Shown: positions 11,409 through 29,720 of the stretch, piece by piece
Numbering within the stretch: position 1 is the stretch's first letter
How the letters are laid out: the number at the start of each line of letters is the position of its first letter
NCBI GenBank assembly: GCA_034696485.1
Contig: JAQIWT010000121.1
Span: 1 to 33,486, forward strand
Length of the DNA stretch: 33,486 nucleotides
DNA from: Isohypsibius dastychi
Lineage: Eukaryota > Tardigrada > Eutardigrada > Parachela > Isohypsibiidae
Direction: 5' to 3'
Program-made: the position numbers and the translations under genes
The notes under the pieces: model-generated
What the model was told of the DNA's origin: nothing
What the model saw: only the letters and a program-made list of their open reading frames with translations
Databases searched by the model: none

Positions 11409-12151
11409 TGTGAAATTTGTTCCGACAGTTGAGTGGATCCATTCTCGTTGACTCCATGTTGTGGTCAAAACTTATGCCGGAAGTGTCGTCTACGCATCAA
11501 TTATAAAGATAGCCATTGCCCATATTGCCACCGGATCTCGACTGTGTCTTTAGTCACTGACGCTCCGGATGGGCTCCCATTTTTCAATCAGTTACAATAC
11601 GTATTTCTGGAGTTTGCTACCTGTACCAAACAGCTTCAACAAAGCGCGGTTGTTCAAGACCAGATGCCTCCTGTTTTGCTCGATATCAAGTAATGACAGC
11701 TTGCAATTGTTGGCCGTTTTCGATATGGGAGTAGAGGTTACCTTTTCACGAGCTGAAATGGAGTTTTTGGAGTTGTTGTCGGAATTGGACCAGAGTTCTG
11801 CTGTCAAGTCAGGGTGAGAAGTTCAACCGGCTTTTAACTATCTTACCGCTAGGTTGGGTTTTTCAGCTCTACTGCGCTGGATTATTGGAATATTGTTAAA
11901 ACAATGGCTGCATTTACTGAATTAGCCCCCGAATCGATATTATGATTTTGTGGCCTTTCTTTCGCGGCTTGGTGTTTCTTTGGACATCATTGCCGAGTTT
12001 TTCACGGAGGAAGGGTGCGCCAGCCAACAGTTTCGGGAATATAGCTCCGGATCAAGATCGTGCTCTGATAGTGGAAACATGGGTTGAGCATCTCCAGCCC
12101 TTGTTTGAGTCGTTGTCGACTAATTTGTGTAATTTTGCTGCTGTTTCATAA
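11409..12151 (+). pseudogene. RING-finger protein gene, broken
   Basis: An acceptor-like ttctacag ends at 11408. The next bases encode CEIC (11409-11420), and after an in-frame TGA at 11430-11432 the frame continues with TPCCGQNLCRKC (about 11451-11486) and CPYC (about 11517-11528). This is the Cys order of a RING finger, with Gln in place of the usual His. RING fingers bind E2 enzymes for ubiquitin transfer. The continuation is Leu/Glu-rich and helical but needs a frame change near 11690, a likely intron (gtgaga at about 11816 to ttttcag at about 11865), and further frame changes near 11940 and 12050. With a stop inside the RING and at least two shifts, it is a pseudogene or a badly assembled gene. 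Confidence 0.65.
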
Positions 12152-12159
12152 TCGAGAAT

Positions 12160-13260
12160 GGGAATTGGTCATATTCCTAGGATGGAGCTGCAGTGGTAGA
12201 TATGTTGAGGTTTTCACATTTCGGAGGGAAAATGGCCAGTCTCCATTACAGCGATAAAACACCTTTCCCACCATGCTGCGAGATAAATGCGCCTGGGAGC
12301 TTGAGTGGAGCTTGAATCTACGACTACAAGTTGAAACATTGCACGTTTCGCATCAGAATATATTTTGGAAAGCGCGTTATGATGTACAGATTCAATGATT
12401 CGACAATTAAAATGTTTCGTTTATGATCTGTTTATATTCTGTTTACAGGGTTTTGTTGACCGGTGCTTGAGTTAATCCTCGGATTTGCCCGAGGCTGGTG
12501 ATTCGAATCCGAATGGATCCTCCAACTCACTATCATGTAGTTTATTATGTTCACTTCATCTGATACATATTGGTCCCGATAAGGATGATTCTGTCCTTCT
12601 GTAACACACAGAAAAACATGACTATTATTTTGATAACATTTCACAGGCTGAAGGAGATGAAACACGGCCCATTACCCAATTCCTTTATCTTCCAAATGAA
12701 AAAAACCAGACGAAAACCTTCTACCTACACTGGACAACCTTAACCGAGAGTGACTACTGAAGTGAATGATGTAAAATGAAGAGCGAAATAAAAAAATGCA
12801 AACAATGATAAGGGTTTCCGGTCAAATAGAAGAAACACCTGTAGAAAATAATGGCGTTTATCACTACAGGCTCTTAGCTGTTTATTTTCACCGTAAGTCA
12901 GCTTTTCTATATCACACCAACAATAAGAGAGCGTATTGCAATATAAGACGCTCTCATCGGTTCGAGTGCCGCCACATTCGGTGACGCCAATGACATCACT
13001 TTCGACACTGCGCCATCAACAGATTCAACATCTTAGGCCGATATAAGATTCCAGTGTGATCTTATCGTTTTCGAAGCAGATGGAACTGCGCTGGATTCAC
13101 CAAACAACGTTTGTCCATGCAACAATATGATGAGCACCTTGTTCCAGAATGTAACTGTCGAACTAGCGGGCAGATTGATTGGCGACGTTCATTTAACATT
13201 TTTTTTTTGTGTTTGTATCGTTTATCTCGAAAATCTCCTGGGCTACATCCAAGGCGCCAT
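12160..13260. other. No gene recognised
   Basis: Only short, low-quality frames are present. A small hairpin (agagcg/cgctct arms) lies near 12927-12955. I see nothing else I can support. Confidence 0.3.
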
Positions 13261-13266
13261 GAGGCG

Positions 13267-26999: not shown

Positions 27000-27970
27000 T
27001 CAAAGTCTGCTGACATTCCAGAAATAATCCATTCATTAAAATGGATGGCTTTGACTGCATTGCTCTTTACAGTTTAGAATTCAGCGGCACCAATGTGCCC
27101 CTTGAATTGACGGCCGAGAACTAAACTGCGAAGTTGGAGACCGCTCCAGACACCCTGCTTGCGGATATCTCAATTCATCTCCGTTTTTCGGAACTTTTCG
27201 ATGCCATGGAGGTTTTTCCAAAAAAGTTCTCGTTGGATATTTCTCCAGAAGGCTTAAACTGTTTGATCTGGCAAACATGATCAATTGAAAACTGGATCTT
27301 ATCAATCATCCAACAGGAGCGAACTTCTTTATTTTGCAACTTTAGAAAGAATTGATTCGAGTGGCCCACTCTTGTCAGCTATTTAAGGTCGGTGATCCAT
27401 ACGGATTTTGCGGTATAATCGAAATCACAGTTGAAGTAACACTTGAAATTACACTAAGTTGAAGTTACACTTTGATACGTGATTGATCCTTCTCGTCATA
27501 CAGTGCTAGTATACATACTTGAAGATGGCCGAACCTTAAACTGTGGTCTCACCAGTTGCAGCCGAGGGTACACGATACGAGGAGCTTATGACTACTTCGC
27601 CTTATTTGGTTCATTTGGACGCTTCAAAAATAGCCGTTTCTATAAGCAAGAGTTATCCAAAAGATCCAAGAATCGACATTCGTTTCCCAGACTCGACAAA
27701 ATGGGCTTATGAAACCTACTAGATGCGGTTGTTTCTTCAAACCGGATTCTTTACCCCTGGTCATCGAAGAACAGAAAAATCAGTGCAGAATACGACACAA
27801 TGCCAAAAGACGAAGAGACCCGACCACTCCAAAAACCAACCAAGCCAATCTCGAAAAAGCTCCGAAAAACAGAGCCGGATAAAAGTGACTCAGGAATTGA
27901 ACTGGTTTAATCGTTGTATATGGGAGTGAATTTTCGGTTATGTCGGTTTCGTAGTCGTTCAACTGCTTTT
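27000..27970. other. No gene recognised between IAP and ribonucleotide reductase
   Basis: Short frames on both strands (27081-27305 minus, 27479-27712 plus) have no motif. The minus-strand part may be the N-terminal leader of the IAP gene. Confidence 0.25.
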
Positions 27971-27975
27971 CAGTC

Positions 27976-29087
27976 ATGTCTGACGCGAATCGTAAACCTC
28001 TTGTTATCTCTCTTTAGAATCTTCATGGAAAAGCACAATCATCGTTCTGGGTTGCAGAAGAGATTGATTTCTCGAATAATCTGATCATACGGAAACATGT
28101 GTGAGACGAAGAACTAGAATCGATCTTGAGTGTCCTGAGTTTCTTCGCCTCAGTTGATGGACACATAATAGAGAATCCAGCAGAAAATTTTCTATGTGAA
28201 GTCCAGATTGCCGAAGCAAGATCATTTTACGCCTTCCAGATCTTTATTGAGAATATCCATTCAGAAGTATATACTCCTGCAATTGCGACCTATGGCAAGG
28301 ATCAAGTTGAGAGAAATAAATTATTACAGAGTGCAGTACGAAACCCAGCGGTGAAACTGAAAGCAGATTGGGTGAAGAATTTCATTAAGGATAGTAAACT
28401 CCTGTTTTGCGAGCGTCTCGTTGCGTTTGCCAGTGTCGTATTGCTGTTCTTTGCGGCTCTTTTGCTGCTTTGTTTTGGCTGAAAATCCGGTGCGTGCTCC
28501 CCAGCTTGACGTTTTCAAACGACCTCATCATTCGTGACGAATCTCTTCATGTTTTATTTGCATGCGCCCTTCATGAATAATTGCCAATAAAGTGTGATCT
28601 CAAAACAATCAGTGAAATCGTTTTGGACGCTTGTCACGTGGAAAAGAAATTTTTGCGCTCATCCATTTCAAAAGAAATCATCGGACTTAATCCGGGCAGT
28701 ATGGACAAATACATTGAATTTGTTTGTGACTACCTGTTGAGCTTGCTCAGTATCCCAGCATTTTTTAGTACACCAGATCCATTCCTTTTTGTTGAAAATA
28801 TTTCTTTTGAGAGCAAATTCAATTCCTTCGAATGTAAAGTTGCAGAATACAAGCTTCCAAAAATTGGTGACAACACTGAGTTTTGTGCAGACGCAGATTT
28901 TTTTTCAATAACGAAACAAATCAATAAACAAGAGAAAATTTTTCTGTTCCGGTCATGGCTTGGTCTTTCCAAAATAACGTCACCAGTTCAGATTCGTTCC
29001 CGCTATTTCAGTTTATTCAGAACAGCTGGTCAGGTCCTTTTCGCTCTGGTTGGTAACACATCGCGGAGGATCATAACTGGACACTGA
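27976..29087 (+). pseudogene. Ribonucleotide reductase small subunit (class I R2), intronless and broken
   Basis: R2 reduces ribonucleotides to deoxyribonucleotides, with the large subunit, through a di-iron/tyrosyl radical. From an ATG at 27976 one frame covers FWVAEEIDFS, FFASVDG (first iron Asp), EVQIAEARSFY, ENIHSEVY (Glu, His and radical Tyr) and KADWVKNFI. After a shift near 28450 the frame goes on with LTFSNDLIIRDESLH (Glu and His ligands), KYIEFVCDYLL and a C-terminal FCADADF ending at 28901, the peptide that binds the large subunit. Lesions are TAG at 28015, TGA at 28102, the frameshift, and TAA at 28578. The fourth Glu ligand position (usually VEG) reads Val-Val-Leu. The normal stop is lost and the frame runs to 29087. 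About 309 codons without introns suits a viral gene or a retrocopy. Confidence 0.93.
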
Positions 29088-29720
29088 AGAATCCCAACTT
29101 TTTGCAGCTTCAATGAAAGCCTGAACGTACGTTAAAATCATTTTTTGTGCAAGACGCGATTCGGTATCTGTGGAAATCGAAATCCAGCAGCTGTCTCTAC
29201 ATCGTTTTGATCGTGATAGATACACGTACTGTTGCCTAACTCGTGCTTGGATTTCGACCTTTTCGCCCAAATCCAGATTTACGGCGCGTCACGTGGCATA
29301 TTTTTCAGCAGAAATGCTCGGATACACCACTAGGTCAAGCTTTAATAGTCCTCTCTGGATGTTCATACAGGAATTAAAGTCCAAGCCGTTAGCACAACCA
29401 TACGCGATTCCAGAATGGAGATACCGGTCAATGATGAGTGTATATCCTTGTCACAGTGCTGATTTCATTCCATCAAGCTTCTGAAACCTTTCTGCACTGA
29501 ACACCAGTTGCCTTGCCGCTTCAAGAAGGATGCATTCCTCGTTTCGGCATGCGATGATGAGTTCGTTGAATAGGTTGCTTGCATTTCTCGAAGAGAATCG
29601 AAAATGTTTATGCTTGACACCACGTTTGTGAAGTGTTTGCATAAGTAATTCATTGTCATACGTCTTCCCAGAACCATCACCGCCCTCAAATACGATAACT
29701 GCACTGCACGGAATAATCAA
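29013..29720 (-). pseudogene. Thymidylate kinase (dTMP kinase) with two in-frame TGA codons
   Basis: The enzyme phosphorylates dTMP to dTDP. One continuous minus-strand frame holds all parts. The P-loop FEGGDGSGKT is at residues 11-20, KHFRF follows, then LVFSAERFQK (the usual LLFSANRWE). LIIDRYLHSG contains the Asp-Arg-Tyr triad at residues 98-100. LLKLDLVVYPSISAEKY matches the strand before the LID, and a helical C-terminus completes it. In-frame TGA codons lie at 29451-29453 and 29289-29291 on the minus strand; there is no frameshift. The total is about 235 codons, close to the usual 205-215 for the family plus a short tail. The first codon is TTG, so the true start may be lost. The tail overlaps the run-on end of the opposite-strand R2 gene by 75 bases. 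The absence of introns suits a viral origin. Confidence 0.92.

Follow-up and report, generated by a model that had tools for sequence, protein, structure and literature searches.

A probable truncated Maverick/Polinton provirus with ribonucleotide reductase, thymidylate kinase, BIR, and RING genes in the tardigrade Isohypsibius dastychi

Introduction

Genes for the small subunit of ribonucleotide reductase (R2), for thymidylate kinase (TMK), and for BIR/RING proteins belong to the cargo of nucleocytoplasmic large DNA viruses (NCLDV), such as asfar-, irido-, and poxviruses. The described systems closest to the locus reported here are the animal Mavericks/Polintons, those of vertebrates being described with 5'-(AGT)2//(ACT)2-3' ends and 6-bp target duplications (PMC8097293), with an adenovirus-type protease reported in 74% of Polintons (PMC4028283). 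The Adintoviridae are described with an OTU-like domain in polymerase B (PolB) and a chromodomain in the integrase (PMC11071296), and complete adintovirus insertions of ~30 kb are reported from Amoebidium (PMC11244446). The stretch of DNA analysed here (the window) is the entire contig C121 of Isohypsibius dastychi, 33,486 bases long, in an assembly of 30.4 Mb and 1648 contigs. At least two viral elements were mapped in it using single proteins of relatives as queries. The main subject is element A (window 22.3–29.7 kb), a truncated, decayed provirus with two RING genes, as well as BIR, R2, and TMK genes. With a probability of roughly 0.9, it is an endogenous animal Maverick/Polinton whose lineage joins a protein-primed PolB (pPolB), an rve integrase, and a double jelly-roll capsid to a cargo for nucleotide supply and host control. 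An earlier note on the same DNA had suggested an endogenous large DNA virus instead.

Gene order and state of element A

From left to right, element A comprises a small RING gene, an uncharacterised gene, a RING gene, a conserved gene, a BIR gene, the gene p169, a weakly PC4-like gene, R2, and TMK. The same order and orientation of R2, TMK, BIR, RING, and the further genes are shared by three other contigs, C450, C276, and C389; further loci with this arrangement, which the earlier note had proposed to look for, are therefore present in the genome. On C450 and C276 the same genes are open and are accompanied by pPolB and an rve integrase. Of the three relatives compared, the nearest to element A is C450, with identities of 77/69% for R2, 59% for TMK, and 66% for BIR, and with DNA identities of 69, 74, and 78% in three blastn blocks (22,294–26,208).

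The left part of element A, as kept, covers 22294–23130 on the plus strand (blastn 69% to C450, L051 3242–2438). It includes the remnant of the small RING gene (22501–22874, plus), which is 63–70% identical in tblastn to L051:2643–3035; the partial RING match at 22537–22785 (plus) lies under the cut-off, and the RING-type genes of relatives match at E 2.5e-36. The uncharacterised gene that follows is cut by a transposon into a 5' part (22973–23131, plus; tblastn 51%, E 1.6e-14, homolog L056:131–658) and a 3' part (24582–24914, plus; 66% to L056:131–658 and 76% to L051:2044–2412). The RING gene is matched in two pieces within 25328–25934 on the minus strand (tblastn to L049:5871–6491, E 1.1e-31), and its RING domain at 25328–25600 (minus) reaches 29.0 bits, above the cut-off. 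A remnant of the conserved uncharacterised gene (25950–26209, plus; tblastn 71–79% to its C450 homolog) is followed by the IAP-type BIR gene (26485–26982, minus; PF00653 46.4 bits; 66% to the C450 homolog over 156 amino acids), for which the domain search within this genome gives a match at 26491–26679 (minus) with 48 bits. In all four relatives examined (C276, C450, C389, and C1136), BIR and RING are encoded separately, a gene on the opposite strand lying between the two, and the fused BIR/RING IAP proposed earlier has to be abandoned.

The conserved uncharacterised gene p169 (27041–27544, plus) is 66% identical to its C450 homolog over 90 amino acids in tblastn. The small conserved gene after it, matched in three pieces (27522–27907, plus; tblastn 73–82% to the C450 homolog), is weakly PC4-like, as a profile from four relatives matches 5a4n, which we take to be PC4-like, at E 0.0049. 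R2 (27973–28901, plus; PF00268) is 69% and 77% identical in tblastn to the R2 of C450 (E 3.4e-121); its pieces at 28027–28458 and 28446–28772 score 116 and 80 bits, and the frame is lost between 28434 and 28452, with stops in addition. TMK (29046–29714, minus; tblastn 59% to the C450 TMK over 227 amino acids) matches PF02223 at 29202–29690 (minus) with 68.1 bits and contains two stop codons inside the domain. The gene types listed in the earlier note (pPolB, BIR, RING, R2, and TMK) are all present in the window by domain and tblastn matches. Its description of them as all broken suits R2, TMK, and the transposon-split gene, the exception being BIR, whose frame is still open across its domain.

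The insertion that splits the second gene is a DNA transposon of 1.45 kb (23131–24581, minus) with inverted ends and an 8-bp target duplication (23123–23130/24582–24589), presumably hAT-like. Its open reading frame (23558–24274, minus) gives in Pfam a weak zinc-finger match only (E 0.033). Since this transposon interrupts a gene of element A, the provirus was already in the host DNA before the transposon arrived.

Related elements in the same genome

Counts of contigs in this genome are lower bounds and cover all matches of the pPolB, R2, TMK, and BIR searches. Matches to pPolB were found on at least 36 contigs, to R2 on at least 20, to TMK on at least 12, and to BIR on at least 30. R2 and TMK matches coincide on seven contigs, including that of the window (hypergeometric P 9e-12 for 20 R2 and 12 TMK contigs of 1648), and all four proteins are matched together on three contigs. 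Full, stop-free R2 frames are present on six contigs (C147, C265, C389, C276, C1136, and C450). The integrase is open on each of them, and these are also the six best integrase matches of the genome; BIR is found on 6/6, TMK on 5/6, and pPolB on 4/6 of the same contigs. Open pPolB frames are present on C450 and C276. On C450, domains of an ATPase, a deoxynucleoside kinase, and a Fic protein are seen, and Fic is also seen on C265 and C147; the Fic-domain proteins in Maverick elements of this genome lie at L046 3943–4839, L048 6730–7752, and L054 4134–4958. A sister-type Maverick on C154 (L059 4780–5951) includes a gene resembling adenylate kinase as well as a partial deoxynucleoside kinase, which indicates that nucleotide genes were gained either more than once or earlier. 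As a separate observation, at least 36 contigs with pPolB matches in 30 Mb make the genome appear Maverick-rich.

Termini and core genes of the lineage

The element on C147 extends from 577 to 28,176 (27.6 kb), with inverted repeats that start with AGTAGTG and end with CACTACT, and is flanked by a perfect 6-bp target duplication, CAGGTT on both sides. Between these ends lie the integrase (7225–8214), a capsid-type gene, a RING homolog, R2, pPolB, BIR, TMK, and Fic. The agreement of the ends and of the 6-bp duplication with the signature of vertebrate Mavericks leads to the assignment of the lineage to Mavericks/Polintons. The sister-type element of C154, a contig with no R2 match, has ends as on C147 and a 5-bp duplication.

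The core proteins of the relatives are consistent with this assignment. The pPolB of C450 scores 167.7 bits with PF03175, and its nearest named relatives are animal proteins; two of the proteins listed are 62–64% identical to it, and the next ones, including soft coral, hemichordate, and bivalve proteins, reach at most 37%. The C276 integrase matches rve with 53.9 bits (cut-off 32.6), and the C450 packaging ATPase matches PF04665 with 27.9 bits (cut-off 22.8). The AlphaFold model of the C276 capsid candidate resembles double jelly-roll capsid proteins, the best 50 of its 1094 PDB matches being viral capsid or scaffold proteins from viruses that we take to be of the double jelly-roll type. The capsid-type gene of C147 is 51% identical to this candidate, for which a search of the protein collection, within its reach, gave just three relatives. 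In scans of IMG/VR with the capsid alignment, with a single pPolB or TMK, and with pPolB or TMK alignments, no confirmed relative was obtained, R2 being the only query that gave some, and none of ten uncharacterised proteins was matched in PHROGs.

Descent and constraint of R2

The R2 tree comprises 67 rows (six element proteins, 24 of 80 kept IMG/VR loci out of 578 confirmed, and 37 of 120 listed proteins). The six element R2s and P0001 form one clade with support 100/99, placed on a long branch apart from the sampled animals (11 R2s), fungi, bacteria, and the 24 IMG/VR proteins; the long branches leave the position of this clade uncertain. A placement of R2 inside the gene family of the host, which the earlier note had named as evidence against its reading, is not what the tree gives as far as the 11 sampled animal R2s go. 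Derivation of R2 from the sampled IMG/VR group was considered and dropped, the element R2s not being among those 24 in the tree. Because the element R2s form a single clade, R2 was probably gained once by the lineage and then inherited by common descent.

The pPolB tree comprises 35 rows, namely the best single open frame from each of eight contigs (three with R2; C276 left out) and 27 of 120 listed proteins. C147, C265, and C450 form in it one clade with P0124 and P0125 (96/84), and the branching order of these three contigs is equal in both trees. The contigs of the sister clade (C154, C907, C824, and C1040) have no R2 match. When the integrases are compared with that of C276, their identity declines in the order of the R2 tree, from 80 through 70, 62, and 50 to 44%, and then to 37% for C154.

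The ratio of nonsynonymous to synonymous differences (pN/pS) is 0.15–0.63, below 1 in 19/19 gene comparisons, which fits genes that would have been kept under constraint. The R2 residues that we take to serve as iron ligands, as the radical tyrosine, and in the path to R1 are invariant in all 11 aligned rows, six of which are from elements, and in the C-terminal tail the last residue alone is invariant. TMK passes the NCBIfam cut-off for dTMP kinase in both proteins tested. R1 was not found in the assembly searched, neither of the host nor of an element; any animal must have one, so either parts of the genome are missing from the assembly or R1 escaped the search. The host's own R2 was not recognised in the assembly, in which 25 caspase-family matches were found. 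The assembly also has 24 matches to zf-C4 nuclear-receptor fingers, and one of its BiP exons scores higher with BiP entries that we take to be mammalian than with the one that we take to be from yeast; both observations indicate an animal host. COX1 had no match in the assembly, nor did the arthropod cuticle family or a nematode transthyretin-like family, but the latter two were not matched in any control genome either, and their absence is not thereby proved.

Element B and other features of the window

Neither the pPolB of the window (14.9–16.3 kb) nor its RING at 11.4 kb derives from element A; their source is a second element that has diverged further. We infer that the BIR, RING, and pPolB remnants at about 10.9–16.3 kb constitute a single element B. 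Its BIR remnant (10873–11258, plus) matches in tblastn L048:5657–6250 at E 1.5e-6 and L033 at 1.4e-4. Its RING remnant (11400–11796, plus) is 48% identical in tblastn to L060:1458–1868 (E 1.9e-27), its nearest counterpart being the RING-type gene on the C154 element; the match at 11433–11690 (plus) is partial and under the cut-off. The pPolB remnant (14876–16297, minus) gives tblastn matches to C450 (E 1.8e-13, at 14876–15814, minus) and C265 (1.7e-11), and its open piece reaches 21.4 bits with PF03175, under the Pfam cut-off of 25.8. That this pPolB is part of the R2 element was considered and rejected, as the two are 6 kb apart and the polymerase is ~21–37% identical to those of the relatives (55% in one 20-residue piece).

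Two proposals of the earlier note are thereby divided. A single element with all the genes holds for R2, TMK, BIR, and RING, and fails for the window pPolB and the RING at 11.4 kb. A hybrid lineage is borne out insofar as the one with R2, TMK, and BIR also has pPolB, enclosed on C147 by one pair of terminal repeats, whereas the polymerase in the window is not its own.

A remnant at 13307–13667 (strand not assigned; tblastx E 2e-37 to L026 on contig C198; no Pfam match) comes from element B or from a third element, and the stretch at 13.3–13.7 kb may belong to element B. The frames at 13037–13786, part of which is common to C198 (L026), resemble by eye the capsid gene of another group of Polintons. 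On C198 (L026) a TMK-like frame adjoins the sequence common to window 13.3 kb, and the contig has no R2 match; perhaps it represents another virus type with TMK.

Elsewhere in the window, a decayed retrotransposon, Gypsy-type by eye, occupies 4056–7600 (minus), with an H2C2 integrase domain of 37.8 bits in one piece. Short-repeat regions are found at 3232–3798, 19349–19663, and 30613–31623, the last of them consisting of two arrays in inverted orientation with ~600 bases between them. The frames at 1567–2250 (plus) are P-loop NTPase-like by eye, with no match in Pfam.

Weighing of the interpretations

Several observations weigh against the interpretation of element A as a Maverick/Polinton with the cargo functions described. 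Of the terminal inverted repeats sought by the earlier note, a pair with a 6-bp duplication exists on C147, and no paired Maverick ends were found in the window in a test for terminal repeats and target duplications, nor paired ends with a duplication on the parts examined of C276, C450, C265, and C389. Nor did the window copy of element A yield a Maverick-type integrase, a capsid, or a polymerase of its own lineage, and for these reasons its class follows from the relatives. Not all of the latter are intact, pPolB being interrupted on C147 and, in the N-terminal part, on C265. The capsid model of C276 has a moderate pLDDT of 59 and query TM-scores of 0.31–0.44 in the PDB matches listed; the penton candidate beside the capsid gene has no Pfam match and a poor model (pLDDT 51), and no Pfam match to an adenovirus-type protease was obtained among the frames scanned, which were part of all frames. 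The agreement of the pPolB and R2 trees is a modest test, with three shared contigs, and dS is saturated in 13/19 comparisons. Finally, the nucleotide and cell-death roles are suggested by the protein families alone.

An origin of the genes from independent insertions, or from host duplicates, that came to lie close together by chance might seem natural, as the window mixes two or more viral elements with a Gypsy-type remnant and a hAT-like transposon. However, chance hardly explains the joint presence of R2 and TMK on seven contigs at the P value given above, this gene order is found again on C450, C276, and C389, and the element R2s group together, away from those of the animals sampled. The C147 element, which encloses the genes in one pair of ends with a 6-bp duplication, contradicts such an origin unless that contig is an assembly artefact, and we regard it as exceedingly improbable. 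Integration at this site of a large nuclear DNA virus of the asfar-, irido-, or nudivirus type would account for a cargo of R2, TMK, BIR, and RING, which is that of such viruses; capsids of iridovirus and asfarvirus are among the fold matches of the capsid candidate, and among solved structures the C276 TMK matches best 2v54 (E 7.6e-27), presumably a poxvirus enzyme, followed by 2yof (1.0e-26). In the relatives, however, a span of 27.6 kb holds pPolB, an rve integrase, and the ends of a Maverick, and their R2s are not among the 24 from IMG/VR contigs. The virus type suggested as possible by the earlier note therefore gives way to a Maverick/Polinton, and its presence here is highly improbable.

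Element A could also be a satellite, or a non-autonomous relative that never had a polymerase, an integrase, or a capsid, as suggested by the window copy, in which these genes are missing, and by C389 and C1136, contigs without a pPolB match. Yet C389 and C1136 still have the integrase, near the contig end, and C450, the closest relative compared, has both pPolB and the integrase, which makes a satellite quite unlikely. A truncated, decayed Maverick/Polinton remains the preferred interpretation of element A.

Proposed role of the cargo

Judging from the sequences, the cargo of the lineage would fall into two groups, with R2, TMK, and (on C450) deoxynucleoside kinase serving nucleotide supply, and BIR, RING, and Fic serving host control. 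No R1 partner of the element R2 was found in the assembly searched; this R2 may pair with the R1 of the host, and the two together could raise the level of deoxynucleoside triphosphates (dNTPs) for viral replication in non-dividing cells. TMK and the nucleoside kinase would feed deoxythymidine triphosphate (dTTP) synthesis and salvage, and the BIR and RING proteins might hold back caspase-driven cell death. It is fairly probable, although with clearly less assurance than the assignment of element A itself, that these elements form a distinct animal Maverick lineage with the working style of a large DNA virus, having its own dNTP supply and a kit against cell death and for host control, kept by selection through a long radiation. 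Unlike a passive transposon, such a lineage may replicate in resting cells.

These elements imply that R2, TMK, nucleoside kinase, and apoptosis-type genes can collect on a pPolB/integrase chassis in an animal, and that a viral lineage can keep R2 without a recognised R1. The open copies in one genome make the proposed role testable by expression data and enzyme assays. In the literature searched, no Maverick/Polinton that combines R2 and TMK, or that has genes of the IAP type, was found, and the combination may be in print elsewhere.

Comparison with known systems

The NCLDV differ from the lineage described here in their replication and integration genes, as well as in genome size, and the element R2 lies outside the clade of the 24 sampled IMG/VR proteins. 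The Adintoviridae are similar in being animal elements with pPolB, an integrase, and a hexon-type capsid, whereas Pfam found DNA_pol_B_2 alone in the C450 PolB, with no N-terminal OTU-like domain seen by that search, and rve alone in the C276 integrase, with no C-terminal chromodomain seen. The only precedent found for an integrated element of this kind with R2 is EMALE07, an endogenous virophage of Cafeteria (PMC8547959). It differs in having a protist host, and the word "thymidylate" occurs nowhere in the main text of that paper (PMC8547959).

Unlike the known Mavericks/Polintons, the lineage has R2, TMK, deoxynucleoside kinase, BIR, RING, and Fic, and an adenovirus-type protease is not recognised in it. 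The 27.6 kb of the C147 element lie outside the range of 15–20 kb given for Mavericks/Polintons (PMC4028283), size being a descriptive rather than a defining feature. In turn, pPolB, the rve integrase, the A32-type ATPase, the double jelly-roll capsid, the (AGT)2//(ACT)2 ends, and the 6-bp duplication (on C147) are all shared with the animal Mavericks/Polintons (Polintoviruses).

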